Made by a program: the position numbers and the translations under genes
Part shown: piece by piece, positions 7,697 to 58,102 of the stretch
Layout of the letters: every line of letters begins with the position of its first letter
Position numbering within the stretch: position 1 is the stretch's first letter
The notes under the pieces: generated by a model
What the model was told of the DNA's origin: nothing
Databases searched by the model: none
Seen by the model: the letters and a program-made list of their open reading frames with translations, nothing else
Source: Luteibacter jiangsuensis
GTDB taxonomy: Bacteria; Pseudomonadota; Gammaproteobacteria; Xanthomonadales; Rhodanobacteraceae
Length of the DNA stretch: 64,000 nucleotides
Direction: 5' to 3'
Assembly (NCBI RefSeq): GCF_030812295.1
Contig: NZ_JAUSSK010000004.1
Coordinates: 62,001-126,000 of the forward strand

Positions 7697-9202
7697 TCAC
7701 TTCACCCCGTGCATGAGCCGGTTGATCAGTGGCGCGATCAGGAACAACACGATCCCCGCGCCAATCAGCAGTTCGAAGCTGAAGCTGAAACCGGACAACG
7801 CCGAAGTCACGGTCATGCCCGTCTCGCCGCTGATATGCCCCGCCAGCAGGCCCGACAGGTTGTTGCCGATGGCGGTGGAGAGGAACCAGCCGCCCATGGC
7901 CAGGCCGACCACGCGAATCGGCGCCAGCTTGGTCACCATCGACAGGCCGATCGGCGAAAGGCAAAGCTCGCCGATGGTCTGCAGCACGTAGCATGCCGCC
8001 AGCGGCCAGAACGGAATCAGGCCATTGCCGCCGACCAGGCTCTTCAACGCATACATCAGCACCAGGAAGCCCAGCGCGTTGAAGATGAGGCCCAGGCCGA
8101 ACTTGCGCGGGATCGACGGTTCCTTGCGCAGGCGCGCCGACCAGCCCCAGGCCAGCGCGACGATCGGCGCGAAGACCAGGATCGCCGCCGAGTTCACCGA
8201 CTGGAACCATCCGGTGGGGAACTCCCAGCCGAACATCTGTCGGTCGACGATGTTCTGGGCGAGGAAGTTGAACGAACTGCCCGCTTGCTCGAAGAACATC
8301 CAGAACAGCACGTTGAAGGTAAACAGCAACAGCATCGCGATCACGCGATGGATCTGGATGCGGTCGTGGCGAACCGCCTCGACCACCAGCATCACGGCGA
8401 CGCCGATGAAGAGCACGCCGAGCAACCATGCGATGAAGATCGCGCCCGCCTTGGCCATCAGCAGGTAGACGAGCGGGATGGCGACGAGGATGCCCACGAT
8501 CACCGCGACCAGGTTCTTCCCTTCATGGCGCTCCGGCGGCGGAACGCCCACGCCCTTGAGCTGGTGCTTGCCGACGAGGAACCAGATGAAGCAGATCACC
8601 ATGCCCACGCCGGTGGCGGCGAACACGGCCTTGTAGTTGTCCTGCAGCGGCGTGTCCGTCAGCACGGAAGCGAGCCAGCCCGTGACGAGGGGAGCGAGGA
8701 ACCCGCCAAGGTTGATGCCCATATAAAAGATCGTGAAGCCACGATCGCGGCGATCGTCGCCGACCGGATAGATCTGTCCGACCAGCGAGGAGATGTTCGG
8801 CTTGAACAGGCCATTGCCCACGATCACCGTGGCCAGGCCGGCGAGGAACACCTGCTGGTTCGGAACCATCACCATGAACAGGCCCGTGCCCATCACCGCC
8901 GCGCCCACCAGGATGGAGCGCTGGTAGCCGAGGATGCGGTCGGCCACCCACCCGCCGAAGATCGCCGAGGCGTAGACCAGCGCGAGGTAGGCGCCATAGG
9001 TCCGGCTGGCATAGCCCTGCCCTGCCGGATCGCCGTTGAAAAACTGGGCGACGATGTACAGGGTGAGGGCCCAGCGCATGCCGTAGAAGGCGAAGCGCTC
9101 CCAGAATTCGGTCATGAACAGCATCCACAGGGGACGCGGGTGACCCAGGGTCTGCGGGTAGTCGGGCACGGGCCGGGCGGCGGCTGGGGCGGTCGGTGTC
9201 AT
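7697..9202 (-). CDS. POT/PTR family proton-dependent peptide transporter
   Basis: 501 residues with about 12-14 hydrophobic segments, inner membrane. The family ExxERF signature appears as TEFWERFAFYGM near residue 34, and the PTR signature region follows in FYMGINLGGFLAPLVTGWLA. It imports di- and tripeptides with protons. The ATG at 9202 has an AGGGAAA ribosome-binding site; a further in-frame ATG 51 bp upstream lacks one. It stands alone between the REP element and the tryptophan dioxygenase gene. Substrate range cannot be read from the sequence. Confidence 0.93.
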   Translation of the reverse strand: MTPTAPAAARPVPDYPQTLGHPRPLWMLFMTEFWERFAFYGMRWALTLYIVAQFFNGDPAGQGYASRTYGAYLALVYASAIFGGWVADRILGYQRSILVGAAVMGTGLFMVMVPNQQVFLAGLATVIVGNGLFKPNISSLVGQIYPVGDDRRDRGFTIFYMGINLGGFLAPLVTGWLASVLTDTPLQDNYKAVFAATGVGMVICFIWFLVGKHQLKGVGVPPPERHEGKNLVAVIVGILVAIPLVYLLMAKAGAIFIAWLLGVLFIGVAVMLVVEAVRHDRIQIHRVIAMLLLFTFNVLFWMFFEQAGSSFNFLAQNIVDRQMFGWEFPTGWFQSVNSAAILVFAPIVALAWGWSARLRKEPSIPRKFGLGLIFNALGFLVLMYALKSLVGGNGLIPFWPLAACYVLQTIGELCLSPIGLSMVTKLAPIRVVGLAMGGWFLSTAIGNNLSGLLAGHISGETGMTVTSALSGFSFSFELLIGAGIVLFLIAPLINRLMHGVK

Positions 9203-34276: not shown

Positions 34277-35605
34277 TCACCTTTTCGCGAGAAGGCCCGA
34301 TCGGCCAATTACGACCTTCTCCGGCTTGGCCGGCTCGGGGTCAGCTAAGCCACGAAAGGCCTCTCCTAATTCCGCCTTACCCATCGCGTAGACTCGCTTG
34401 TCTCGCAGGCTGGTAATGCCTTCCTGCCAAGCCAACAACATGCGTTTGCCGATATCGTTGAACCCAGGGTGCTCTTGCATCGCCGCACGCACGTGGGGCC
34501 CGACCTCGATCAACGCATCTCCGATTCGGTCGATGATGGTCTTCTGGTCCTTGGCCGAAACGCCAAAGGTTACGGTGATGAACTGCTGAAGCTGTTTACC
34601 AGGCGCCCAGGTCTTCCTGCCACGGAACGCGATGGCCGGTGGGTTGTTCCTGTAGTCCACGTATGCCGCGGTTGTGATCATGTCGTAAGCCGGCGCCAGA
34701 TGGACGTCTTCGAGGCCGGTATAAAGCAAGGCCACGTTTTTCGCGTGGCAATCGGCATTCCTGAGCGCGAAGGTCAGAAGCAACATGGTGGCCATCTGCC
34801 GAAACACTTCCGCTCGATTTATAACCGGTACGTGGTCGCGCACGGCCTTCGCTATACGTTCCCACGTCGTCTCGTATTTAGCGGCTGGACGTAGCCCCAA
34901 CAACGCGCAGAAGTCCTCCATGCCCAGGTTCGGGATACCGTTCCCGTCCACGTCGAAGCGATGGACGATCAGCACCTGTCCGTCACGCGAGATGTCGGTC
35001 CTGGCCGCAGGCATCACTTTCGCCACGACCTGCATGCATAGATGTTCGTTGAGGGTAACGAACGGCAGGAGCCGGGACGAACCCTTGACGATATGTCGGT
35101 GGGTGAACAGCGTGGCTCTCGTGTGAGCGTTCGCGGCTGCTACCTCGACGTCCGTATCCAGGAACTTCGGAACGACGCCAGATACGCCGCTAGTGGCGTG
35201 TTGACGCACCAAGTCGGCGAAGGCCTCCTCGGAATTGTCGCCTTGAAGCAAGGCGGCGACATCCACCGGCTTAGGCGGATCCCTCAGATCGACTCCGGGC
35301 GCCGCTACTTGAATCCGGCCGATCATGTTACGGCCGATCACTGAAAGGAGTGCCATGGGACTGGCACCGATATGTGGACCGAACTGCTCCTGCAACACTT
35401 GCAGCAGGTATCCCTCCGGCAGATTCATCTGGAAGATGGGGTGGAGCACGTCGTCCCAGAGATACGGATCTCGACGAACTCGCATCGTCAACGAGACCAG
35501 GTCGTTCGGTAGCACACCGTCACGATAGGTCATCGAACTCCTGAAGTCGCCGATGGACTCCAACGTGGCGACCTCGCGGCCCGACACATAGACCGAGAGG
35601 TTCAT
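34277..35605 (-). CDS. hipA: HipA family toxin kinase
   Basis: 442 residues, close to E. coli HipA (440), so a full single-chain toxin. The N-terminal part (about 1-120) is the HipA_N subdomain; the core has the GVSGVVPKF loop, which replaces the P-loop-like phosphorylated loop, the catalytic RNADCHAKNVALL (D.HAKN) and the metal-binding APAYDMI. E. coli HipA phosphorylates glutamyl-tRNA synthetase and causes growth arrest; other HipA proteins have other tRNA synthetase targets. Its ATG overlaps the hipB stop by 4 bp, coupling antitoxin and toxin. Confidence 0.92.
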   Translation of the reverse strand: MNLSVYVSGREVATLESIGDFRSSMTYRDGVLPNDLVSLTMRVRRDPYLWDDVLHPIFQMNLPEGYLLQVLQEQFGPHIGASPMALLSVIGRNMIGRIQVAAPGVDLRDPPKPVDVAALLQGDNSEEAFADLVRQHATSGVSGVVPKFLDTDVEVAAANAHTRATLFTHRHIVKGSSRLLPFVTLNEHLCMQVVAKVMPAARTDISRDGQVLIVHRFDVDGNGIPNLGMEDFCALLGLRPAAKYETTWERIAKAVRDHVPVINRAEVFRQMATMLLLTFALRNADCHAKNVALLYTGLEDVHLAPAYDMITTAAYVDYRNNPPAIAFRGRKTWAPGKQLQQFITVTFGVSAKDQKTIIDRIGDALIEVGPHVRAAMQEHPGFNDIGKRMLLAWQEGITSLRDKRVYAMGKAELGEAFRGLADPEPAKPEKVVIGRSGLLAKR

Positions 35606-43890: not shown

Positions 43891-44802
43891 ATGCCGCAAT
43901 CCTCCGCCCTGTCCCAGCGTGGCCAGTTCCGTGCCATGTACATGGGTCTCAAGGGCCAGCACGCGCTCGAACACACCCCCGTGATCCTCTGCGAAGGCGA
44001 CTCCTGGTTTTCCACGCCACTGGCGATGAACCTGCTCGACTGGATCGTGTCTCCCGCCCCCGAAGACGAGGCGCGGGGCGTGCCGCAGTTCGGCAAGGGC
44101 GGCCTCTTCTTCCGGGTGGAACGCAGCGGCGATCAGGCGGCTCCGCAAGCCGCCCATCCCGGTCGCTCGATGTTCACCGAGGACAACGTCGACGATCTCG
44201 TCGGCTGGTTCACCCGTTATCGGTTCGATGCCGTGCTGCTGAGCGCCGGCGGCAACGACTTCGTCGACACATGGCTGCACGATGCCCTGGCCGGGCGGCG
44301 TGGCCTGAGCGCCAGCCAGGCGTTCGATGCCATCGTCGCGACCGGCCGTTACGAAGAGGTACGCGAGGCTTACGCGTTCTTCGTCAAGACATTCCATGAA
44401 GCACGGCCCGATGTGCCGATCATCGCGCACACATACGACTATCCGCGGCGCATCGGCAGCGCGGCTGAACTCGGCTTGCGCAACCTGGGCGCCGCCGCCT
44501 TGCTGAAAAAGTCTGCCGGCCCGTGGATCGGACCGAACATCGAGACCGTGATCGAGGGCGGCATCGATGCATGGCGCGAGTTCACCCGCCACCTGATCGA
44601 CGGTTTCGTCCAGCGCGTACTCGAGCCGGTGAAGCGCAACGCGGCTTTCGGCGGCATGTTCGACTACGCGGACCTGCGCGGGCAATTGACCGACGACGCA
44701 CAGTGGAACGACGAGATGCACCCCACCGAGGCGGGATTCCACCAACTCGCGGGCGTCTTCCGCGCAAAGCTGATAAGCAGGTTACCGCTCGCCAAGCGTT
44801 GA
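43891..44802 (+). CDS. SGNH/GDSL family hydrolase
   Basis: 303 residues from the ATG at 43891, no signal peptide. Block I has the nucleophile in ILCEGDSWFSTP, block III is GGND (LLSAGGNDFVD), and block V is DEMHPTEAGFHQLA with the catalytic Asp and His. Such enzymes are esterases, lipases or carbohydrate deacetylases. Cytoplasmic by signal absence, which is unusual for secreted lipases. Its last 21 bases overlap the convergent methyltransferase gene. Confidence 0.88.
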   Translation: MPQSSALSQRGQFRAMYMGLKGQHALEHTPVILCEGDSWFSTPLAMNLLDWIVSPAPEDEARGVPQFGKGGLFFRVERSGDQAAPQAAHPGRSMFTEDNVDDLVGWFTRYRFDAVLLSAGGNDFVDTWLHDALAGRRGLSASQAFDAIVATGRYEEVREAYAFFVKTFHEARPDVPIIAHTYDYPRRIGSAAELGLRNLGAAALLKKSAGPWIGPNIETVIEGGIDAWREFTRHLIDGFVQRVLEPVKRNAAFGGMFDYADLRGQLTDDAQWNDEMHPTEAGFHQLAGVFRAKLISRLPLAKR

Positions 44803-45621
44803 ACGGAACACCACGATGCGTTCCGCCGCCTGGGGATCCGGGTCATCGCTGCGGAGCCATGGCATCCGTGCAAAGGTGCGCGAACAGGGACCGAGTGTGA
44901 TCACGCGGATCGGTCGCCGCCGTGCTTCGCGCTCGATGTTGGCCACGACATCGCGCAGCACGCTGCCGACGAAGGGCGTGAACAGGTAGAAGACGTTCGC
45001 CTCCGACAGGTCGGCGTCACGCGCGTCGCCGACGCGCATGTGCACGCCGGCCAGGCCCAGGCGGGCTACCGCCTCGACCGCCCGATCGACGTAGGCGGGC
45101 TCGCGTTCCACGCCGAGCGTGCGCGCTCCCGTGAGGATCGCCACCAGGATCGGCACGTGTCCCATGCCCGCTCCGAGATCCAGCACGATATCGCCGGCCG
45201 TGATGCCGGCACGCGCTACGCCATCGATGATGTGCCTTGCGGGGCTCGGTTGATAGAAAACCATCTCCGCCGGCAACACGCATGGCACCGCGGGTTCCTC
45301 CAGCGAAAGCACGCCCGCGACGATATGGTCCAGCACGTCGTAGTGCTGTCCCGTCGGAAAGCCGACATCGAGCCATGCCGTCAACGCGGCGCGTCCTTCG
45401 CCGCGACGGATGGCATCCCGGATCGAAGAGAAACCTTCCGCGTCGAGCGTTTCCATGGCATCGAGGAGCCGCGCCGCGCGCTCCCGCCACGCGGGATCGT
45501 GCGCGCCGATAAGGAGCAGGTCGAGACGGTCGGCGGCTTCGGCGCGCCACAGGAAGGCGGCGGGGTCACGCCACGCCTGCTCCTGTTCGAGCAGCACGAC
45601 GGTGGAGGCTAGCGATTCCAT
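44782..45621 (-). CDS. Class I SAM-dependent methyltransferase
   Basis: 279 residues from the ATG at 45621. The N-terminal 120 residues are helical and unassigned; the SAM motif I is IVLDLGAGMGHVPIL, followed by the acidic motif II (TLGVEREPAYVDRAV) and VFYLFTPFVGSVL, which is like motif IV of DOT1- or PCMT-like enzymes. The substrate is unknown. It is divergent from the GH97 glycosidase and convergent with the hydrolase gene. Confidence 0.85.
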   Translation of the reverse strand: MESLASTVVLLEQEQAWRDPAAFLWRAEAADRLDLLLIGAHDPAWRERAARLLDAMETLDAEGFSSIRDAIRRGEGRAALTAWLDVGFPTGQHYDVLDHIVAGVLSLEEPAVPCVLPAEMVFYQPSPARHIIDGVARAGITAGDIVLDLGAGMGHVPILVAILTGARTLGVEREPAYVDRAVEAVARLGLAGVHMRVGDARDADLSEANVFYLFTPFVGSVLRDVVANIEREARRRPIRVITLGPCSRTFARMPWLRSDDPDPQAAERIVVFRSTLGER

Positions 45622-45739: not shown

Positions 45740-47542
45740 ATGAAGCTCGTACGCCGTTCGTTCGTCCCCCGCCGTATCGCCGCCATGCTCGTCGCGTGCT
45801 TCTGTCTGCCCGCCTTGGCGACCCCTCCGCTGGCGACGCTGGTATTTCGCGACGGCGGGCAGCCGGTGCTCACCATCACCGATCCGCACGGCCTCGCCCT
45901 CGTGGACGAGACCCTCGGCCTCCGCACCATGGAGGCGGATCTTACCCATGGCCTTCGACTCGTCGGTACCACGCAGCGGCAGCTCACCGAGCGCTATCGC
46001 ATGACCGTCGGCAAGCGCCTGGATCGCCATGCCAATCTTTCCGAAACCCGATACGCCTTGCAGAACGGCAAGGGGCAGAAGCTCGATGTCGTCGTGCGCG
46101 TCGCCAACGACGGCGTGGCATTCCGCTACGAATTGCCAGGAACGGCGCAGGCGACGGTGACCGGCGAGGCCACCGCGTTCGCCGTGCCGCCGGCTGCGAG
46201 AGCGTGGTTGCTTCCCTATAACCCGCAGTACGAGAAAGAACGTATCGAAACCAGCGCGGGAAGTGCCGCACCGGGCGATTACGGCTACCCGTCGCTGTTC
46301 CAGGTCGGCGACAACTACGTGCTGGTCACCGAAGCCAACGCCGACGGCCGCTACGACGGCAGCCGCCTTACGCACGCGGCGAACAGCGGCACGTATGCAT
46401 TGACCCTCGCCGACGCCCGCGTGGAAAGCACCGGTGTCACACCGTGGCGCACGGTGATCGCCGGCGACCTTGCCACCGTCACGGAGTCCACCCTGGTCGA
46501 CGACCTCGCCGATCCGGCGCGCTTCGCCGATACCTCTTGGATTCGCCCGGGCAAGGTCGCCTGGTCGTGGCTGAGCGAACACGACAGCCCCTCGAACGCC
46601 GAACGGCAGAAAGCCTATGTGGACTTCGCCGCACGCAACCGCATCCCCTATGTGCTGGTCGACGAAGGCTGGAACGAGAGCTGGGTGCCGGGCCTGGTCC
46701 GCTATGCGAACGCGAAGCATGTCGACATCCTGCTCTGGTTCCACTGGTCGAAACTCGACACACCCGCCAAGCGCATGGCCGAACTCGCGCGGGTGAAGGG
46801 CTGGGGCGTGAAGGGAGTGAAGATCGACTTCATGGAATCCGACTCGCAGGCGCGTTATCGCTGGTACGACGACACCCTCGCCGATACGGCGAAACTGCAC
46901 CTCATGGTGAACTTCCACGGCGCGACGATTCCCCATGGCCTCGCTCGTACGTGGCCGCACCTGATGACCATGGAAGGCGTGCGCGGCGCGGAGAACGATC
47001 CGCCCGCGGCTGGAAACACCATCCAGCCGTACACACGCAATGTCGTCGGTTCCATGGACTACACGCCGGTGGCATTCGATGCGGGCCGGAAGGAAGCCTC
47101 GATCGCGCACGAGTTGGCGTTGCCGATCGTCTTCGAGTCGGGCTGGACGCACCTGGCCGACATGCCGGAAGCTTACGAGCGCCGGCCGCAAGCGCTCGCC
47201 TTCCTCGACCAGGTCCCCACCGCGTGGGACGAGACGAAGCTACTCGGCGGCACGCCTGGACGGGACGCGATCTTCGCCCGCCGCAGCGGCGACCGCTGGT
47301 TCATCGGCGCGATCTCGGCCGGGCCCGCGCGCCGGCTCAGCGTGCCACTGGCATCCCTGGGCGTCGGGCCGTGGCACGCCGATATCGTTCGTGACGGCGT
47401 GGGCAGGGGCGACGTGGTCCGCTCGGCACAAAACATCACGGCCGATGGCGCGCTTTCGTTCGAGGTATCCGTGAACGGAGGTTTCGCCGCGATCCTGTGT
47501 CCGCTGGCCAAGGGACAGTTCGCGAGCGGTTGTTACCGCTAG
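45740..47542 (+). CDS. Glycoside hydrolase family 97 enzyme
   Basis: 600 residues from the ATG at 45740 (another at 45704 is possible). A signal peptide (about 1-27, ending ALAT) is followed by the N-terminal beta-sandwich, the TIM-barrel (about 270-510) and a C-terminal beta domain. The barrel has VAWSWLSEHDSP, VLVDEGWNESW, GVKIDFMESDSQ and MVNFHGATIPHGL, the GH97 pattern. The family includes alpha-glucosidases and alpha-galactosidases; the KIDFMESD Asp suggests the retaining group. It would act in the periplasm on oligosaccharides. It shares the stop tetranucleotide CTAG with the convergent sensor kinase. Confidence 0.9.
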   Translation: MKLVRRSFVPRRIAAMLVACFCLPALATPPLATLVFRDGGQPVLTITDPHGLALVDETLGLRTMEADLTHGLRLVGTTQRQLTERYRMTVGKRLDRHANLSETRYALQNGKGQKLDVVVRVANDGVAFRYELPGTAQATVTGEATAFAVPPAARAWLLPYNPQYEKERIETSAGSAAPGDYGYPSLFQVGDNYVLVTEANADGRYDGSRLTHAANSGTYALTLADARVESTGVTPWRTVIAGDLATVTESTLVDDLADPARFADTSWIRPGKVAWSWLSEHDSPSNAERQKAYVDFAARNRIPYVLVDEGWNESWVPGLVRYANAKHVDILLWFHWSKLDTPAKRMAELARVKGWGVKGVKIDFMESDSQARYRWYDDTLADTAKLHLMVNFHGATIPHGLARTWPHLMTMEGVRGAENDPPAAGNTIQPYTRNVVGSMDYTPVAFDAGRKEASIAHELALPIVFESGWTHLADMPEAYERRPQALAFLDQVPTAWDETKLLGGTPGRDAIFARRSGDRWFIGAISAGPARRLSVPLASLGVGPWHADIVRDGVGRGDVVRSAQNITADGALSFEVSVNGGFAAILCPLAKGQFASGCYR

Positions 47543-50500
47543 CGCAACGTATCCCGTAACCGGCGCAGCCACCCCGCACGGTGCGGGAACGCTCGCGCAA
47601 CGGGCAACCGTACGCACACATCCGTCCCGCCGTCCAGGCGCGAAGCGATCGAGACGAGCGCATCGATGGTGGCGGCGCGCTCGCGAATGCCGCGCAGACC
47701 CCAGTGGCCCTCGCGGCCGTCACGGAGCACCGCTTCGTCGATGCCGCGGCCGTCGTCGCGTACCGAAAGGAGCAGTTCGGCGTCTTCGACCCGAAGCTCC
47801 ACGTCGACGCGGTTCCCCTGCGCATGGGTGAGGGCGTTGTGCACGGCTTCACGGGCGATGCCATATAGCTCGTCACGAACCAGGTCATCCAGGCCGCGCA
47901 GGTCCCCGTAGGTGGTTACGACCACAGGTACCGTGTGTTCCGCTGCATACGCCGAAGACAGGGCCCGCAACGCGACATCCAGGCGCGCCGACTCCCCGGC
48001 GTGGGCGCGCAGGTCGCGCACGCGGTCTCGCGCTTCCACCAGCGCTTCGTCGGCGCGATCCAAGGCGCGTTCCATCTCACCGCGCAGCGGCTCTTCCGGC
48101 GGCACGCGGTTGGCGATGGCCTGGAAGCGCATGGTCAATCCCTGGATGCTCTGCAACAAGGTGTCATGCAATTCCCTGGCGATGCGTTCGCGTTCCGCAT
48201 GCCGCTCCTGCAAGCGCGCGCGCAGTTGCGAGGCCATGCTGCGCAGGCGCAGGAAGAAGGCCAGCCAGGCAAGAAGCACGACCGCGAGCAGACATAGCAG
48301 GAAGAACCACGGCATCTGGTAGAACGCACGCGCCACGTTGACCTCGATCGACGCGCCTTCCTCGTTGACCACGCCATCTTCGTTCGCCGCGGTGACGCGG
48401 AACACATAGTGGCCGGGCGGCGGGTCGGTATAGACGGCCTCGCGATCGTTTCCCGCATCGCGCCAGCGCGTGTCGAGGCCTTCCATGCGATAACGGAAGC
48501 GCACACGTTCGGGCACGCTCAGGCTCGTGGCCGTGAACGCGATCCGCAGCCGCTCGGTATACGCGGGCAGATCGATACGAGGGCCTGCGGGCCACGTGCC
48601 GACATCCGTGGAAAAGGAACGAATGGACACCGGTGGTGCCAAGGGGTTGCGGGGCACGTGCGCGGGATCGATGGAGACAATGCCGCTCGTGGTGGCGAAC
48701 CATAGCCGGCCATCGTCCGCCACGACCGCGGTGGGTAACGGCCTGAATTGCGCGGGTGTGCCCGGCAAGCCGTCGAGGGAATCGAACAAGGTGCCCGGGG
48801 GCCGGTAGTCCGGCTCTTCCAATGCACGCGCCATGTCAGCCGTGGCTATCCGGACAACGCCCTGTGCCGCGTTGGCCCAGAAGTCGCCACGATGATCGCG
48901 GACCAGGCCGGAGACACCGCGCAGCGGATCGCCCGCCATCGCGATCATCCGCGCCCGGCCGGCGATGACGACGCCGATGCCGAGTTCGCCACCGACCCAT
49001 ACGGCCTCGCCGTCTTCCAGCAGCGCCGTGACATTGCCCACCGCCAATCCTTCGCCCGATCCGATCACGACGTCCCCGCCTTGCGAGCGCACGAGGATGT
49101 TGTTGCGGGCGAAGCCCATCCACAGCCGCGCACGGCGGTCGTTCATCAAGACCAGCGGAGCCGAGTCGATGGGAACGGCCGGCAGGGGATCGTGCTCCCA
49201 GCCACCTTCGGTGAAGTGGAAGATGCCGGGCCGGTTGACCGACACCCAGGCACCACCCTTGCCATCGCCCACCACCGCCTGCACCCCCGAGTAATCCGGG
49301 TAGGGCAACGGAGCGAACGGTTCGGGCTTGCCGTCATGCAGGCGCCAGAGGCCTCCAGGACCGCCGAGCCAGATGCCGTCGGCATCACGGCTGGCGGCGG
49401 TGATCGCCTCGGTCAGTGCGATGGGTTCGATGCCGTTCGCGTCGACCCGGCTGAGTGGCCGGCTCTTGGTGCCAACCCAGACGCCATGATTCTTCGCCGC
49501 TACCATGGCGAAATCCGTGGCACCGGAGGGAAGCATCGCCGGCAGCAGGCGGCTCACCCGAAAACGGTCGAGTCCCCGGCTGCCCCCCACCCAGATATTC
49601 CCTTCGCGATCCTGGATCACGCTGCTGGCGTAATCGGAACTGAGCCCGTCGCGCTCCACGAAACGCTGCGCCTCGGCACTTTCCGCACCGATCACGCGGC
49701 GCGGAAGATCGCGCACCCGGGGTACGCGGCGGATGCCATCGCCCAAGGTCGGCATCCACAAGGCGCCGTCCCGGTCGAATAGCAAGCCCGCCGACGACAA
49801 TCGCAGTACGGGACCGGCTTCGGCGGGATCGGCCTCGCCCGTCCACGCCGGACGCACCCCGCCATCAGCCTCGGCCACCCAGATCGAACCGTCGGCGGCC
49901 TCGGCGATCCGGTTCACCCGGCCGACCTCGCGTGTCGCCACTTCGAAACGGTGACCACCACGCGGCAACCAGGCCAGTGCATCTTCGGTCGCCACCCAGA
50001 GGCGGCCTTCGCGATCCACGAACAGGTTGCGGGCGCGCATGCCCGGCAAGCCCATCGAAGGGCCCACCGATATCCAGCGCCCATGATCGAGGCGGACGAG
50101 ACCATTGAAGGTCGCCGCCCAGATGTTGCCGTCGGGGGTACCGCCGATGGCATAAAGCGTTCCCGTGGGTAGTCCGGACGACGCCGCGTAATGCATGGCG
50201 TGGTCCCCGTCGATGAAACTCGCCACGCCATAACGGAACCCGACCCACAAGCCGCCGGATGGCGGCGCATAAAGCGAGGCCACGCTGGACGCCAGGAAGT
50301 CTCCACCCTCGCGTGGGTGGTAGCGTTCGAAACGCACGCCATCGAAACGATAGAGGCCGGTTTGCGTGCCCAACCAGAGGTAACCGTCGCGCGTCTGCGC
50401 CAACGCCGTGACCTGGCCCGGGGCGCCTTCGCGTATCGTCCATGCCGTGTGGTAGAACTGGCCGATGTCGCGATCCCGGCTATCTGCCGCCAGGGTGTCG

Positions 50501-50574
50501 CAGGCGAACGCCAGCCAGCCGGCAACCACCAGCCAGACCGACATCCACGCAGCGATCGCGCGTTGGAAACGCAC
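47539..50574 (-). CDS. Propeller-sensor histidine kinase (Reg_prop, Y_Y_Y, HisKA_3)
   Basis: 1011 residues from the GTG at 50574, chosen because GGGAGG lies 8 bp upstream and it gives a clean signal peptide (about 1-31). The periplasmic part (about 35-730) is built of two-component propeller repeats (for example TALAQTRDGYLWLGTQTGLYRF) and a Y_Y_Y domain (FRYRMEGLDTRW); one transmembrane helix follows (about 735-760). The cytoplasmic part is a NarL-type kinase with RELHDTLLQSIQGL as phospho-acceptor helix and DDGRGID in the ATPase domain. No receiver or partner regulator is nearby. Such sensors often detect polysaccharide fragments, fitting the neighbouring GH97, which is inference. Confidence 0.9.
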   Translation of the reverse strand: MRFQRAIAAWMSVWLVVAGWLAFACDTLAADSRDRDIGQFYHTAWTIREGAPGQVTALAQTRDGYLWLGTQTGLYRFDGVRFERYHPREGGDFLASSVASLYAPPSGGLWVGFRYGVASFIDGDHAMHYAASSGLPTGTLYAIGGTPDGNIWAATFNGLVRLDHGRWISVGPSMGLPGMRARNLFVDREGRLWVATEDALAWLPRGGHRFEVATREVGRVNRIAEAADGSIWVAEADGGVRPAWTGEADPAEAGPVLRLSSAGLLFDRDGALWMPTLGDGIRRVPRVRDLPRRVIGAESAEAQRFVERDGLSSDYASSVIQDREGNIWVGGSRGLDRFRVSRLLPAMLPSGATDFAMVAAKNHGVWVGTKSRPLSRVDANGIEPIALTEAITAASRDADGIWLGGPGGLWRLHDGKPEPFAPLPYPDYSGVQAVVGDGKGGAWVSVNRPGIFHFTEGGWEHDPLPAVPIDSAPLVLMNDRRARLWMGFARNNILVRSQGGDVVIGSGEGLAVGNVTALLEDGEAVWVGGELGIGVVIAGRARMIAMAGDPLRGVSGLVRDHRGDFWANAAQGVVRIATADMARALEEPDYRPPGTLFDSLDGLPGTPAQFRPLPTAVVADDGRLWFATTSGIVSIDPAHVPRNPLAPPVSIRSFSTDVGTWPAGPRIDLPAYTERLRIAFTATSLSVPERVRFRYRMEGLDTRWRDAGNDREAVYTDPPPGHYVFRVTAANEDGVVNEEGASIEVNVARAFYQMPWFFLLCLLAVVLLAWLAFFLRLRSMASQLRARLQERHAERERIARELHDTLLQSIQGLTMRFQAIANRVPPEEPLRGEMERALDRADEALVEARDRVRDLRAHAGESARLDVALRALSSAYAAEHTVPVVVTTYGDLRGLDDLVRDELYGIAREAVHNALTHAQGNRVDVELRVEDAELLLSVRDDGRGIDEAVLRDGREGHWGLRGIRERAATIDALVSIASRLDGGTDVCVRLPVARAFPHRAGWLRRLRDTLR

Positions 50575-50622
50575 AGGGTCGACCTCCCTCGGAACAGGCA
50601 AAGATAGCGCGTCGGCGATCCG

Positions 50623-51480
50623 TCAGCGCGCGACGCCCACGTCATGCAGGAACGCTACCGAATCAGCAAGTACCCGTGCGGCCGCGGGAGAGCGCTCGGG
50701 TGAGGCGAGCACGTGCGCGGCATGATCGTAGGCGACCAGCCGGCGACGCGATGGCGCAGTCCCGAGCCACGCGAACGCCTCGCGCATCGCCGCCACCGAC
50801 GTGAGCGTATCGCGGTCGCCCTCGCCGCCGTCCCACATGCCGAAGAACACAGGGCAAACGATGGTGCCCAGGCGCTCCGGTCGCATCCACTCGATAAAGA
50901 GCCGCGCGATGGCGCGGTAGCCATCGGAATGGACCATCGACGACCAGTAGCGCCGCTGGAACGGCGACCTCTCCCCCGGCGGCACCACGGCACCTTGCAG
51001 CAAGAGCGCCGCGCGCAACTGCTCGGGATCGTGTACGCGGATACCGGGGGACCAGGCCACCACGGCCGCGATGGCGTCCGGGCGGCGCACTGCCAGATCG
51101 AGGGCGAGCGACGCACCCATCGACGTGCAGACGAGTACTATTTTTTCGCCCAGGCGCAGGCCGATCTCCAGCGCCGCATCAGCGTCCGCGCGCCATCGCT
51201 CTGGCGAAGCACCGGCCATGGCCCCGGGTTCGTCCGAGCCATGTCCGGTCAGGCGATTGAGGAAGAGGTGGGCCGCGCAGGCCCGGGCGATCGTACGATG
51301 TGCCGGCGCACCCTCCGCCTGGCTGGCGGTGAAGCCGTGCAGGTAGACGACCGACAGCGGCTGACGATCATGCGGCACGCCTGCGCCAAACACGATACGC
51401 GCCTCGTTGTCGGCCTTGATATCCGCTACTTGGCGCTCCCTTTGATCGATGTCGCTGGCGAGCTCATCCAGTGTCCTCAC
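50623..51480 (-). CDS. Alpha/beta hydrolase, translationally coupled to the hybrid kinase
   Basis: 285 residues from the GTG at 51480, which overlaps the hybrid kinase stop as GTGA. Alpha/beta-hydrolase features are the oxyanion segment SVVYLHGFTAS, the nucleophile elbow CTSMGAS (Ser; the first Gly of GxSxG is replaced by Cys) and the C-terminal YDHAAHV with the presumed catalytic His. GHGSDEPG resembles the cap-adjacent loop of esterases. No signal peptide. The substrate is unknown. It stands between two sensor kinases in one operon. Confidence 0.85.
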   Translation of the reverse strand: MRTLDELASDIDQRERQVADIKADNEARIVFGAGVPHDRQPLSVVYLHGFTASQAEGAPAHRTIARACAAHLFLNRLTGHGSDEPGAMAGASPERWRADADAALEIGLRLGEKIVLVCTSMGASLALDLAVRRPDAIAAVVAWSPGIRVHDPEQLRAALLLQGAVVPPGERSPFQRRYWSSMVHSDGYRAIARLFIEWMRPERLGTIVCPVFFGMWDGGEGDRDTLTSVAAMREAFAWLGTAPSRRRLVAYDHAAHVLASPERSPAAARVLADSVAFLHDVGVAR

Positions 51481-53645
51481 GCGTCGGCCGCCACGCCCGC
51501 CTGCTGCCGCTGGATTTCCACGAAGCGCCGTACCGACCGGCCCAGCGCATCGACCTCGGCGGAGGCCGCACGCATGTCGCCGCCGGCATCGACGATCACG
51601 GCGATGTCGTCGCATACGCGGCTGGCGCCGGGTACACCCAGGTTGCCCAGCACGTTACGCAAGGCATGGACCGCCTCGGACGCCGCGGCGATGTCGTGCG
51701 AGGCGATCGCGGCGCGAAGCGCATCCAGGTGGTGGCCGGTGGTATGGGCGCAGAGATCGACGAAGTTGGCGAACTCGTCCTGGCTGCTGAGCGCGCGCAT
51801 CTCATCCAGAGGGGTACCGATGTTACCCCGCCCATCCGCCGGTGAATCGATCACCGGCTGCCAATGCCGCACGGCATGCGCGAGCTCGCGCTCCTCCGCG
51901 ACGGCTTCGATCACATCGAGCAGGCGTTGCGCCGCGATCGGTTTCGTCAGGTAGGCCCGCGCGCCCGCCCTGAAGGCGATGCGCACGGCGTCATGGCTGG
52001 AATCCGCGCTGAGCATCACGATGGGCGGCACGCTGCCTGTGCGCCGGGCAACTTCGATGCGGCCAAGCACGTCCCAGCCGGAACTGCCGGGCATATGCAG
52101 ATCCATGAAGATCAGGTCGACGCCTTCGCTGGCCAGGCGCGACAGGGCCTCGTCGCCGCTGGCACCGAACACGGGCTGGTGACCGGCGCGCTCCAGGATG
52201 CGTCCCACGATCTCGCGATTGGCGGCGTTGTCGTCCACCACCAGGCAGCGCAGTGGAGCGACCCTCACCCTGTGGTCGTCGAGCAGGTCCACCAGCGGCG
52301 TGTCGGCCACGCTGCGCGCCCCGGCGGCCGCCCGAGGCAAGGTGAAGCGCCAGCTGAAAACCGAGCCGCCCATGGGGTTGTCGCCCACGTCGAGGCTGCC
52401 CTGCATCTGCTCGGAGACGTTGCGCACGATGTAGAGGCCCAGCCCGACCCCCTCCTGGCGCCGGCTTTCGCCTGCACTCAGTTGGTGGAAAGGATCGAAG
52501 ATCCGCTGCTTGTCGCTATCGGCGATACCGATGCCTGTATCGGTCACGGTGCAGACGATGGTCGGATCGCGGCCCGCCACGCTTTCCAGCAGTTCCACGC
52601 GCACGTCGACCGAGCCTCCCGGCGGCGTGAACTTCAGTGCATTGGAGGCGAGGTTGGACAGCACCTGCTCGATGCGCCCAGGGTCGCCCGCGAACACGCC
52701 TTCGACCGAGGCATCGCGCGACAGGCTGAAGGCGATCCGCTTCTCGGCCGCGTAGGGACGGCAAACGGCCCCCACCGTCGCCAGCACCTCGTCGAAAGCG
52801 AAGGCCTGGTGACGAAGGTTGAAACTGCCGCCGGCGAAGGACGCGACGTCCAGCACGGCGTTCACCCGATGCAGCAAGGCATTGGCGTTGGTGGAAAGCA
52901 GGGCCACCAGGCGGCGCTGGTCGTCGTTCATGGCCGAGGTGTCGAGCAGCGAAGCGGCATGTATCACCGTACCCAGCGGCGTGCGCATCTCGTGGCTCAT
53001 CATCGAGATGAAGCGGTGCTGTGCCTCGCGCGAGGCGATCGCTTCCGCCGACACCTCGCGCAACGCATCCATCATGCGGTAGAGCGTCATCGGGAGCACG
53101 ATCACCAGCGCCAGGGCATATAACGCATAGGCCGGACGGGCAATCCAGAAACCATCCGGCGCCACCACGGCCAGGATAGCCACCGACGCGGCGACGCTGG
53201 CGACGAAGGCCCTGCGGCTGTAACGCACGCCCAATGCCACGGAGAGGAAGGGCAACACCGGGGTCAGCGTGATGAGCAACATGAACGCCGACTTGAGCAA
53301 GACGGCAACCATGACGAAGTTGGTGACACCGCCGACGGCATCGATCGCCACGTTCTGGCGCAACGAACCCGCCCGGAGGCCAAGCATCCAGAAGGCACTG
53401 AGCACGAACAGGGCGGCCGCGACGGGAACCACGCGGTGGGCCTCGATCGCCATCGGCACGGGGCCCTGGAGCCATGCGGCGGACCAGATGACGACGAATC
53501 CGAGAACCACCGTACGCATCAGCGAGACGTGGTACTCACGGAAGCTCGCCACGATGCGATCGATACGCGGGTTACGCAACCGCTCGGCGACCTCACTGAG
53601 CATCACCGGTTCGGCGCGCTTGCCGCTACCGCCATCGATCTTCAT
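51477..53645 (-). CDS. RpfC-like hybrid sensor kinase (HisKA-HATPase-REC-Hpt)
   Basis: 722 residues from the ATG at 53645; a TTG 24 bp upstream is possible. The N-terminus has about six hydrophobic segments (about 40-190) with short loops and no large periplasmic domain. Then follow a DHp helix (His in SMMSHEMRTPLG), ATPase (SNLASNALKFTPPGG, TDTGIGI, GVGLGLYIV), a receiver (VVDDNAANRE, Asp in FMDLHMPG, Lys in YLTKPI) and a C-terminal Hpt (HALRNVLGNLG). This architecture matches RpfC of Xanthomonas, the receptor for diffusible fatty-acid signals, but no rpfF-like synthase or rpfG gene is adjacent. Confidence 0.88.
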   Translation of the reverse strand: MKIDGGSGKRAEPVMLSEVAERLRNPRIDRIVASFREYHVSLMRTVVLGFVVIWSAAWLQGPVPMAIEAHRVVPVAAALFVLSAFWMLGLRAGSLRQNVAIDAVGGVTNFVMVAVLLKSAFMLLITLTPVLPFLSVALGVRYSRRAFVASVAASVAILAVVAPDGFWIARPAYALYALALVIVLPMTLYRMMDALREVSAEAIASREAQHRFISMMSHEMRTPLGTVIHAASLLDTSAMNDDQRRLVALLSTNANALLHRVNAVLDVASFAGGSFNLRHQAFAFDEVLATVGAVCRPYAAEKRIAFSLSRDASVEGVFAGDPGRIEQVLSNLASNALKFTPPGGSVDVRVELLESVAGRDPTIVCTVTDTGIGIADSDKQRIFDPFHQLSAGESRRQEGVGLGLYIVRNVSEQMQGSLDVGDNPMGGSVFSWRFTLPRAAAGARSVADTPLVDLLDDHRVRVAPLRCLVVDDNAANREIVGRILERAGHQPVFGASGDEALSRLASEGVDLIFMDLHMPGSSGWDVLGRIEVARRTGSVPPIVMLSADSSHDAVRIAFRAGARAYLTKPIAAQRLLDVIEAVAEERELAHAVRHWQPVIDSPADGRGNIGTPLDEMRALSSQDEFANFVDLCAHTTGHHLDALRAAIASHDIAAASEAVHALRNVLGNLGVPGASRVCDDIAVIVDAGGDMRAASAEVDALGRSVRRFVEIQRQQAGVAADA

Positions 53646-53750
53646 GCTCGATTGGTCCACCTCCCCCAATAGCCGCCTAGTCTATGAACTCTGTCGCCGC
53701 TGGCAAGTGCGGCGTGGGGATTCACTTTCGTGAAAACGTTTCCAGCCGCG

Positions 53751-55069: not shown

Positions 55070-58000
55070 ATGAAGAAGCAGTTTCTCTCTCGCAGGAGCG
55101 CACTCGCACTGGCGGTATGTACCTGCCTGGGTGGCGTTTCGAGCGTTTACGCGCAGTCCACCACCGGCGCCATCAACGGCTCCGTTCCGGCGGGTGGCAA
55201 CGAAACCATCGTGATCGAAAGTGGCACCGGCTTCCGCCGCGAAGTGCCAGTGGACGAGCGTGGCCGCTATTCCATCGCGCAGTTGCCCCTGGGTACCTAC
55301 GCCGTGAGCCTCGTTCGCGACGGCACCACCATCGATACCCGGAAAGACGTAGCCCTGCGTGTCGGCGCCAGCACGGACGTTTCCTTCAACGCTCCTCCGG
55401 CGACGGCAGGCAACGCCAGCGATGCCACCAGTCTCCAGGGCGTGACCGTCACCGGTACCGCATTACCCAACATCGACGTCACTTCGGTGGACTCGCGCAC
55501 CGTCATCACCTCGGAGCAACTTGCAAAGCTGCCGCTGGGCCGCACGGCCGAAGCAATCGCCCGGCTGGCGCCCGGCGTGGTCAACAATGGTGGCGGCTTC
55601 ACCAGCGATACCGGCCGCTCCGTCGCCAGCTTCGGCGGTGCCGCAGCCAACGAGAACGCGTATTACATCAACGGTTTCAACACCACCGACCCACTCAACG
55701 CCGTCGGCGGCCTGCAACTCCCCTACGGTGCGATCGACCAGCAAGAGGTGTACACCGGCGGCTATAGCGCACAGTATGGCCGCTCCGATGGCGGCGTGAT
55801 CAGCCAGGTCGGTAAACGCGGCACCAATGAGTGGCATTTCGGTGCCCAGCTTCTCTGGGAGCCCGCCTGGGCGCGCGCCAGCAACGACGACCTGCACTAC
55901 GCACGCGTACCCTCATCGGCCCCAGCGGGAAATCTTTACCAGCCGAAGAGCCAGAACGATCGCTGGACCACCACGGTCAGTGCGTACGCCGGCGGCCCGC
56001 TGATCAAGGACAAGCTGTTCTTCTTCGTGGCGGGCGAATTCGAGAAACAGGGCCAACGTAACGTCAACTCCGTCGGCAGCAACACGCCTTCATCGACCAA
56101 CGACTATAAGTCGCCTCGCTGGTACGCCAAGCTCGACTGGAACATCAACGACAGCAACATCCTCGAGCTGACCAGTGCGGGCGACAAGCGCGAAGGTTCG
56201 GGCACGCGTTACAACTACGATTATGTCAACCTCAACCGCACCAGCACCATCGGTCCAGTGGACGACACCAAGACCGGTGGCGACCTGTGGGTGGCCAAGT
56301 ACACGAGCTACATCACCGACAACCTGACGGTGAGCGCCATGTACGGCAAGATGAACACGAAGAACTACGACCAGCCGGGCAACTATGATCCCACCCTGGT
56401 GCGCGTCGACAGTTCGCAGAATCAGAATCCGGCGCTCAACGGCGGCTCCGCGATTCGCAACAACCAGGTCGACGATATCAGCGCGCCAGGCCGTGGCAAC
56501 AAGGCTACCAATTTCCGCTTCGACGTCGCCTACACGCTGGGCGACCACACGATTTCCGTGGGTATCGACAACGTGAAGTCGAAGGCCGTGGAATTCGGCA
56601 CGCACAGCCCCGGCCCAGGCTACACCTGGAACTACGGACAGCAAGACGATCCGACGCAGCCGATCTCGGATGCGCCCGGCATCAACTTCGTTCCCGGCAC
56701 CGCCGGCTTCGCGAACGGCGCGGACGGCTATTACGTCAGCCGTAACGTCGTGGACAACCTGGTCAATGTCCGGTCGGACCAGAAAGCGCAGTACATCGAG
56801 GACAAATGGCAGGTAAGCGATACCTGGCTGCTCTCCATCGGCCTGCGCAACGACCAGTTCACCGATTACAACCAGTTCGGCCAGGAATTCATCACACAGA
56901 CCAAGCCGCAGTGGGCGCCACGCCTGGGCGCATCGTGGGACGTCAACGGCGACGGTTCGTTCAAGGTATTCGCCAATGCCGGCCGCTATTACCTGGGCCT
57001 GCCACTCAACCCTGCCACGGGCGCGGCTGCCGGGTATACCTCCACCCAGCAGTACTACACGTATTCGGGCATCGATTCGACTGGCGCGCCCACGGGGCTC
57101 ACCCAGATCAGCGCCCCCGTATCGGCAAACAATTCGTATGGCATACCGCCCGACCCGCGCACCGTCGCCGGCAAGAACCTGAAGGCGGAGCACCAGGATG
57201 AATTCATCCTCGGCTTCGACAAGTCCTTCGGCGATCACTGGGTGTACGGTGCCAAGGCCACCCAGCGCATCCTGCGCAGCGCCATCGACGACTTCTGCGA
57301 CGTCGCGCTCGTGACCGACAAGGCGGAGGCACTTGGATACACCGTCGGCTCGACCAACAGTTGCTACCTGGTCAATGGCGGCGCGTCCAACACCTTCACA
57401 CTGCTCGACCCGAACGGCAACGCGTTCGAAGTACCGCTCAGCCGCAAGGAAATCGGTTTCCCCGCGCTGAAGCGTCGCTACTACAGCCTCGAGACATTCA
57501 TCGAGCACAGCTTCGACGGCGTGTGGTACGGCAAGCTCGACTACGTGTTCTCGCGCAGCTACGGCAATACCGAGGGCCAGGCACGCACCGACACCCGCCA
57601 GAGCGGCGCGGCCGGCAGCGTCGACTGGGACAACAAGTACGTCATGGAGTATTCGAACGGTCCGCAGGGCAACGACCACACGCACGTCGTCAAAGCGTAC
57701 GGTTACTGGCAGTTCCTGCCGGAATGGCAGCTGTCGGGCAACCTGCAGGCCATTTCCGGAGCCCCCGAAGTCTGTACCGGCTACTACGGCCCGAACCACA
57801 CCGATCCGGTGTCTTACGGCAGTTCGTACCGCTGGTGTAATGGACAGCCCTCGCCCCCGGGTAGCCATGGCCGCCTGCCCTGGACATTCCAGCTCGATCT
57901 CGGCGTGACCTATCGTCCATCCTGGGGTGGCCAGAAGCTTGCCTTCTCGGCCAACGTCTTCAATGTGCTGAACCAGCAGCGGGCGACGTTCCGTTACCCG

Positions 58001-58102
58001 GCCAGCGAAGGTCCGGCGAACACGCTCAACACGATCTATCGCGTACCGCTCTACACCCAGGATCCGCGCTACGGCCGCCTCGCGGTGACCTACGACTTCT
58101 AA
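55070..58102 (+). CDS. TonB-dependent outer-membrane receptor (Oar-like)
   Basis: 1010 residues from the ATG at 55070 with ribosome-binding site GGGGAAGG. Order: signal peptide (about 1-29, ending VYAQ), a CarboxypepD-reg-like beta domain (about 30-115; TGAINGSVPAGGNETIVIES), the plug (about 130-250; LPLGRTAEAIARLAPGVV, RSVASFGGAAANENAYYINGF, GGVISQVGKRGTN) and a 22-strand barrel ending in an aromatic residue (VTYDF). It transports or binds a large substrate such as an oligosaccharide, peptide or chelate with TonB energy. Substrate unknown; no SusD or periplasmic partner is nearby. Confidence 0.92.
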   Translation: MKKQFLSRRSALALAVCTCLGGVSSVYAQSTTGAINGSVPAGGNETIVIESGTGFRREVPVDERGRYSIAQLPLGTYAVSLVRDGTTIDTRKDVALRVGASTDVSFNAPPATAGNASDATSLQGVTVTGTALPNIDVTSVDSRTVITSEQLAKLPLGRTAEAIARLAPGVVNNGGGFTSDTGRSVASFGGAAANENAYYINGFNTTDPLNAVGGLQLPYGAIDQQEVYTGGYSAQYGRSDGGVISQVGKRGTNEWHFGAQLLWEPAWARASNDDLHYARVPSSAPAGNLYQPKSQNDRWTTTVSAYAGGPLIKDKLFFFVAGEFEKQGQRNVNSVGSNTPSSTNDYKSPRWYAKLDWNINDSNILELTSAGDKREGSGTRYNYDYVNLNRTSTIGPVDDTKTGGDLWVAKYTSYITDNLTVSAMYGKMNTKNYDQPGNYDPTLVRVDSSQNQNPALNGGSAIRNNQVDDISAPGRGNKATNFRFDVAYTLGDHTISVGIDNVKSKAVEFGTHSPGPGYTWNYGQQDDPTQPISDAPGINFVPGTAGFANGADGYYVSRNVVDNLVNVRSDQKAQYIEDKWQVSDTWLLSIGLRNDQFTDYNQFGQEFITQTKPQWAPRLGASWDVNGDGSFKVFANAGRYYLGLPLNPATGAAAGYTSTQQYYTYSGIDSTGAPTGLTQISAPVSANNSYGIPPDPRTVAGKNLKAEHQDEFILGFDKSFGDHWVYGAKATQRILRSAIDDFCDVALVTDKAEALGYTVGSTNSCYLVNGGASNTFTLLDPNGNAFEVPLSRKEIGFPALKRRYYSLETFIEHSFDGVWYGKLDYVFSRSYGNTEGQARTDTRQSGAAGSVDWDNKYVMEYSNGPQGNDHTHVVKAYGYWQFLPEWQLSGNLQAISGAPEVCTGYYGPNHTDPVSYGSSYRWCNGQPSPPGSHGRLPWTFQLDLGVTYRPSWGGQKLAFSANVFNVLNQQRATFRYPASEGPANTLNTIYRVPLYTQDPRYGRLAVTYDF

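Follow-up and report, generated by a model that had tools for sequence, protein, structure and literature searches.

In the diffusible signal factor (DSF) system of Xanthomonas (rpfBFCG), one of the closest described counterparts of the locus analyzed here, a membrane-bound histidine kinase named RpfC is partnered by the crotonase RpfF, which binds to its receiver. RpfC is reported to bind a fatty acid via its N-terminal sensor, in which residues R15, D17, S/T18, E19 and Q22 were identified as indispensable for the perception of DSF (PMC5391125), and to have five transmembrane (TM) regions in most Xanthomonadales and ten in some (PMC4517397); RpfF combines thioesterase and dehydratase activity, yielding free fatty acids (PMC4542539). 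The PhcB-PhcS system of Ralstonia (3-OH MAME) resembles the present locus in that a histidine kinase detects the compound made by a small-molecule enzyme, and differs in that the partner enzyme is a methyltransferase. The kinase of the LqsA-LqsS system also senses the product of its partner, and the LqsA-type partner is a pyridoxal phosphate enzyme. To our knowledge, membrane kinases with a known lipid signal are rare, the fatty-acid binding of RpfC being one case. Here we analyze a stretch of 64,000 nucleotides from Luteibacter jiangsuensis (contig NZ_JAUSSK010000004.1, positions 62,001 to 126,000; hereafter the window), in which a gene for an RpfC-family hybrid kinase is directly followed by a gene for an alpha/beta hydrolase, a pair of which we found no description in the open-licence literature searched.

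The pairing of the two genes is real and conserved, and is not due to chance. Both are located on the minus strand. The kinase gene (51477..53645; 722 amino acids; supported by its open reading frame (ORF), Pfam matches and an AlphaFold model) runs from the ATG at 53645 to the TGA at 51479-51477, and the hydrolase gene (50623..51480; 285 amino acids; supported by ORF, Pfam, a predicted model and conservation) begins with a GTG, the kinase stop and the hydrolase start overlapping by the four nucleotides GTGA (51477..51480). An earlier note on this DNA had reported this overlap, which is indeed found in the sequence, under coordinates (51477..53645) that comprise the kinase alone and leave the hydrolase, at 50623-51480, outside. 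The kinase is present in all of 23 Luteibacter genomes and the hydrolase in 17 of them, and in each of these 17 the next gene 3' of the kinase, on the same strand, is that of the hydrolase. In addition, a four-nucleotide NTGA overlap is seen in 10/10 Luteibacter pairs compared (eight GTGA, one TTGA and one ATGA, where the hydrolase start codons are predictions of the gene caller, that of L058 being assigned by hand), suggesting that translation of the two genes may be coupled via the overlap. Chance adjacency, for which we roughly estimate a probability of ~1e-5 per genome, is ruled out by the 17/17 adjacency together with the NTGA overlaps. The earlier note had held that the link would be chance if the hydrolase adjoined the kinase only in this strain; besides Luteibacter, the two genes were found adjacent in Pinirhizobacter and Xanthomonas. 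Finally, purifying selection appears to act on both genes, as the dN/dS ratios (nonsynonymous over synonymous substitution rates) of seven genome pairs range from 0.11 to 0.20 for the hydrolase and from 0.08 to 0.16 for the kinase, values that are rough given the high dS of 0.7-1.4.

The distribution of the pair beyond Luteibacter was established in three samples. Firstly, 299 genomes of the order were searched, with at most eight hydrolase and three kinase first-look candidates scored in each, so that misses are possible; the kinase turned up in 29 (E<=1e-130) and a hydrolase relative in 34 (E<=1e-30). A directly adjacent pair is present in 16 of the 299, namely ten Luteibacter, one Pinirhizobacter (G011) and five of genus g58, and in G209 the two genes are one gene apart. 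The same sample contains 12 kinase genomes without an adjoining hydrolase and 17 hydrolase genomes without an adjoining kinase, G301 belonging to both. Secondly, when GTDB contigs were scanned for the hydrolase, the kinase was next door in ten of the best 80 of 219 matching loci (7/7 Luteibacter, 3/7 Xanthomonas and 0/66 others, some of which have little flanking sequence). Thirdly, the hydrolase search of a family sample gave matches in 42/147 genomes at E<=0.001, 16 of them at E<1e-40; the other 26 matches, being weak and partial, were not counted as hydrolase relatives. Near positions 8001-8816 of four Xanthomonas loci (L098, L101, L102 and L104) we observed the hydrolase frame alone, flanked by what we take to be yajQ and a DUF1415-like gene; in the first three the frame is open and has no standard start at the expected place. 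Thus, the kinase and the hydrolase can each exist alone, because there are kinase-only genomes as well as hydrolase-only loci in Xanthomonas.

The surroundings and the make-up of the unit differ between genera. The order in Pinirhizobacter is cupin, Hpt-like gene, kinase without Hpt, hydrolase and response regulator. The latter (L070 8600-9286), which may be the output regulator of the kinase, has a weak LuxR-type helix-turn-helix match below the Pfam cut-off, and no clear Luteibacter orthologue of it was seen among the matches listed (24-33% identity, 10-21 per genome). The Hpt-like gene of Xanthomonas prunicola, nasturtii and vasicola is preceded by what we take to be yajQ and followed by the kinase and then the hydrolase. 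The kinases of Xanthomonas, Pinirhizobacter and G050 lack the Hpt domain, and an Hpt-like protein is encoded by a separate gene; in the separate Hpt-like proteins scanned, the Pfam Hpt match is below the cut-off. In G050 and G209 a CPBP (Rce1-like) gene lies between kinase and hydrolase, and such CPBP/Rce1-like membrane protease genes were placed at L067 6988-8522, together with DUF998, and at L253 6839-7495. These data bear on the explanation that the two genes have stayed together by descent, hitchhiking in an operon with no functional link. This would be compatible with the fact that either gene is singly missing in some genomes, and that the third gene of the Luteibacter unit is unlike the neighbours found in other genera. 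We nevertheless consider it very improbable, because the pair persists amid differing surroundings, i.e., between what we take to be yajQ on one side and a DUF1415-like gene on the other in Xanthomonas, in a cupin/response-regulator setting in Pinirhizobacter and before a Reg_prop kinase in Luteibacter, and because CPBP genes lie in between in G050 and G209.

Phylogenetic trees, each built from a single search, are in line with a lineage of kinase-linked hydrolases. In the midpoint-rooted hydrolase tree, 18 kinase-linked hydrolases and five rows without a nearby kinase are on one side of a branch with 100/99 support, and Rhodanobacteraceae relatives, several of which have a hydrophobic N-terminus, and Bacteroidota are on the other. 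The kinase tree separates a branch with the hydrolase from a branch without it; this deep split is poorly supported (94/71, 83/66), and L254, L253 and L255 form long branches.

The hydrolase has the features of a serine alpha/beta hydrolase. It matches the Pfam families Hydrolase_4 and Abhydrolase_6 above their cut-offs, its predicted model has a pLDDT of 96.4, and Ser120, Asp224 and His256, invariant in 46/46 aligned relatives, are assigned by conservation as its putative catalytic residues. The earlier note had attached importance to a modified nucleophile elbow. The motif, CTSMG, was confirmed in the window hydrolase, but it carries no functional weight: among the 74 of 77 Luteibacter-type cluster representatives that match the motif, the first position is occupied by G 45 times, by A 24 times, by S four times and once by C, in the window's own cluster. 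The first place of the canonical GxSxG can thus be G, A, S or C, with the elbow Ser and second Gly invariant among the relatives, and we dropped the elbow as a functional clue because this place varies while the Ser, Asp and His residues are constant. The closest solved relative by sequence is the lipolytic enzyme LipS (4fbl; 1.3e-5), and the monoacylglycerol lipase 4lhe is a weak match (0.008). The likeness to these Hydrolase_4 lipases consists of the Pfam families and the conserved Ser, Asp and His. The window hydrolase differs from them in belonging to a subfamily of its own, and a profile of 46 relatives retrieved no PDB chain at the strict threshold of 1e-12.

The gene neighbourhoods of more distant relatives suggest, by analogy, an acyl-lipid chemistry for the hydrolase. 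As the gene caller had been trained on the window and performed poorly on Bacteroidota, six-frame ORFs were used there. Downstream of the hydrolase, within 1.5 kb and on its strand, 65 Bacteroidota-type loci contain a FabH-like ORF in 21 cases, a DAGK-type lipid kinase in 19 and FabI in 9 (for each kind, Pfam identified one representative), and 32/65 loci have at least one of the three. Among the Rhodanobacteraceae relatives, runs of a TonB receptor, the hydrolase and GDPD occur in L068, L074, L304 and L305. As a separate observation, L134, L123 and L117 are among the Bacteroidota-type loci that recurrently pair an uncharacterised hydrolase with fatty-acid genes.

The kinase has the layout of an RpfC-type phosphorelay protein. 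Pfam places HisKA at residues 209-269 (8.6e-11), HATPase_c at 320-436 (3.9e-27), Response_reg at 468-579 (1.2e-22) and Hpt at 630-703 (1.7e-5), the last narrowly above its cut-off (25.4 versus 24.6 bits). An AlphaFold model of the first 210 residues, based on an alignment of 22 rows and with a mean pLDDT of 84.8, has helices at 37-57, 63-91, 99-119, 130-141, 144-161 and 171-209, and thus predicts a sensor of about six short-loop membrane segments; since the fourth helix is only 12 residues long, the chain may instead cross the membrane five times and have one re-entrant piece. Both the layout described in the earlier note (about six short-loop TM segments, kinase, receiver and Hpt) and the likeness to RpfC that it had claimed are borne out by these data and by the 31% identity over 616 amino acids that the kinase shares with an rpfF-linked RpfC from Xanthomonas. 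Furthermore, the RpfC receiver 3m6m is the top receiver-only match among the best 60 of 74 PDB chains (3.3e-28), and source annotations label several homologues RpfC. What the kinase shares with RpfC is the domain order with Hpt in one chain, the multi-TM short-loop sensor and the receiver; what sets it apart is its partner, an alpha/beta hydrolase, and the number of TM segments, about six as compared to the five or ten reported for RpfC. In the midpoint-rooted tree two RpfC rows stand apart from the kinase family with 100/100 support, and two Xanthomonas genomes (G147 and G149) carry the kinase module plus a true RpfC beside RpfF elsewhere in the genome. Hence, as judged by its sequence, the kinase is a separate, paralogous branch of the RpfC family.

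We tentatively propose, with less than even confidence, that the pair is a two-gene unit of Lysobacterales in which an RpfC-family kinase for a lipophilic ligand is combined with an acyl-ester hydrolase that adjusts the ligand pool. The short-loop membrane domain of the kinase would read the ligand, without RpfF in Luteibacter, and the kinase would feed a His-Asp-His-Asp relay whose Hpt is fused in Luteibacter; in Xanthomonas and Pinirhizobacter, the Hpt apparently has a gene of its own. The hydrolase would be a serine acyl-ester enzyme (lysophospholipase, monoacylglycerol-lipase or thioesterase-like) that is probably cytoplasmic, since inspection by eye suggests no hydrophobic N-terminus. It may control the amount of ligand through hydrolysis of an acyl ester or a thioester, by which a fatty acyl group would be either set free or taken away, and its presumed effect on the ligand pool could go in either direction; that its substrate is connected to the kinase ligand is suggested by the gene order. 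We lean towards ligand tuning or turnover over sole synthesis, because the kinase often occurs without the enzyme, both in Luteibacter and in a sister branch. A more specific version, in which this branch of the RpfC family is RpfF-independent and the hydrolase frees, at the inner membrane, a ligand of the fatty-acyl or lyso-lipid type that the kinase then reads, seems to us unlikely. If it were true, some Xanthomonas would have two parallel fatty-acid sensors and Luteibacter the hydrolase-linked one alone.

Several observations weigh against the proposal of a ligand-adjusting unit. First, six of the 23 Luteibacter genomes keep the kinase without the hydrolase (four of their loci, L063, L064, L065 and L066, were inspected; the other two genomes are G380 and G384), and the hydrolase is therefore not an obligatory signal source in this genus. 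Kinases without the hydrolase are also found in genera g4 and g6, in L075 and L255, which form the sister branch, and in L254. Conversely, four of the seven named Xanthomonas loci retain the hydrolase frame, and neither kinase nor Hpt was found in them. Second, with regard to the lipid-gene contexts, 33/65 Bacteroidota-type loci have none of FabH, DAGK and FabI; the FabH, FabI and GDPD neighbours belong to other hydrolase subfamilies; and their arrangements are probably a few inherited ones and not 32 independent events. Moreover, no GDPD lies directly behind the hydrolase in L069, L072 and L073, the seven loci of genus g67 (L298-L303 and L306) have neither GDPD nor a TonB receptor, and GDPD was detected in none of the Bacteroidota-type loci, where gene calls are poor. 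Third, the sensor/TM part of the kinase resembles that of RpfC weakly, and the octet of DSF-sensing residues, [RK]xD[ST]ExxQ, was found within the first 60 residues of 0/32 kinases of this family, of which those of L254, L077 and L084 may start late. The same scan detected it in one of two RpfC, the one missing it, L183, being a shortened gene call.

According to the main rival explanation, the hydrolase is merely a co-expressed metabolic or downstream enzyme with no chemical link to the ligand of the kinase, which would sense membrane state or an outside compound. In that case, the enzyme might process lipids or esters that appear in the same situations. The Luteibacter genomes with the kinase alone, the Xanthomonas loci with the hydrolase frame alone and the occurrence of other family hydrolases in lipid-gene contexts with this kinase not nearby all favour this explanation, which we regard as a real if somewhat doubtful possibility. 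On the other hand, the NTGA overlap in all pairs compared and the adjacency kept across genera favour a closer link, without excluding co-expression.

A further question is how the pair relates to DSF signaling. Luteibacter is named among the bacteria with DSF signaling in PMC9040794. In contrast to that listing, RpfF was found at E<=1e-30 in 0/12 Luteibacter searched, and none lies beside the kinase. RpfF at the same threshold is present in 27/147 family genomes, of which the weaker matches (38-43% identity) are possibly not genuine RpfF. We also considered whether RpfF is encoded elsewhere in the window's own genome, and discarded this candidate: there are five PF00378 matches, the direct RpfF search at 1e-30 came out empty, and when two of the PF00378 proteins were compared with the PDB, RpfF was not among the best 60 of 138 and the best 60 of 208 chains, respectively. 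RpfG (REC-HD-GYP; E<=1e-40) was detected in one of 23 Luteibacter (36% identity) and not in the genome of the window. Thus, the kinase has an RpfC-type relay layout and does not appear to be a member of the DSF system, because the octet, RpfF and RpfG are lacking as described and the tree places it apart from RpfC. Nor does the pair look like a DSF system in which the synthase has been exchanged. The suggestion of the earlier note that the hydrolase replaces RpfF is not supported either, as the module coexists with rpfF-rpfC in the two Xanthomonas genomes mentioned above and is separate from RpfC in the tree. It follows that the automatic "RpfC" label on these kinases is not to be taken as DSF quorum sensing.

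It has nevertheless to be considered that the enzyme might make, or else quench, a diffusible signal exchanged between cells and sensed by the kinase, in a DSF-like quorum system with the hydrolase in the place of RpfF. The kinship of the kinase to RpfC and the absence of RpfF from all 12 Luteibacter searched would fit this view. An alpha/beta hydrolase is not expected to have a dehydratase function, and acting alone it would be an unlikely source of the 2-enoic double bond of DSF. The hydrolase does occupy a place comparable to that of RpfF as the enzyme adjoining an RpfC-family kinase, and RpfF itself, according to PMC4542539, has a thioesterase activity that hydrolyses acyl thioesters; the difference is that RpfF is a crotonase (PMC4542539). 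Given the chemistry, the Luteibacter genomes that have the kinase without the enzyme and the presence of the module alongside rpfF-rpfC in Xanthomonas, we judge a diffusible-signal system of this kind distinctly unlikely. Luteibacter is suited to testing the proposed unit, since no rpfF was found there to confuse the result, and a branch related to RpfC but joined to another conserved enzyme would show what the RpfC family senses beyond DSF.

Upstream of the kinase gene, on the minus strand, conservation reveals a -35-like hexamer TTGCCA (53701..53706) and, 16 nt after it, a -10-like hexamer TAGACT (53679..53684). The combination TTGCCA-16 nt-TAGACT is present in 12/14 Luteibacter loci, with a TTGCGG variant in L060 and none in L066. 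Judging from this conservation, a separate transcript probably begins with the kinase gene. The third gene of the presumed operon encodes a Reg_prop/Y_Y_Y/HisKA_3 sensor kinase (47539..50601, minus strand; ORF and Pfam), whose start codon is uncertain; it begins 21-78 nt behind the hydrolase gene on the same strand, the gap varying with the start chosen. In L063, L064 and L066, which lack the hydrolase, the hybrid kinase is immediately followed by the Reg_prop kinase; at L065 both the hydrolase and the Reg_prop kinase are missing.

A gene for a S-adenosylmethionine (SAM) methyltransferase-like protein (44782..45621, minus strand; ORF and neighbourhoods) is an uncertain member of the unit. In L057, L061 and L062 it is the next gene after the Reg_prop kinase, and it is separated from the latter in the window by a GH97 gene on the opposite strand (45740-47542). 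We considered the methyltransferase as a co-player that would produce a methyl-ester signal and dropped it: since it is present in 21/23 Luteibacter genomes, including four without the hydrolase, it does not track the hydrolase. In G047 the methyltransferase-like gene and the kinase are on different contigs.

Two other genes of the window were noted in passing. A large gene at 55070-58102 encodes a TonB-dependent outer-membrane protein with a carboxypeptidase-regulatory domain, a homologue of which lies beside the kinase locus in 10/11 Luteibacter loci compared (L056-L065, not L066). Farther away, a gene at 34277-35605 encodes a HipA-like kinase (HipA_C, Couple_hipA).

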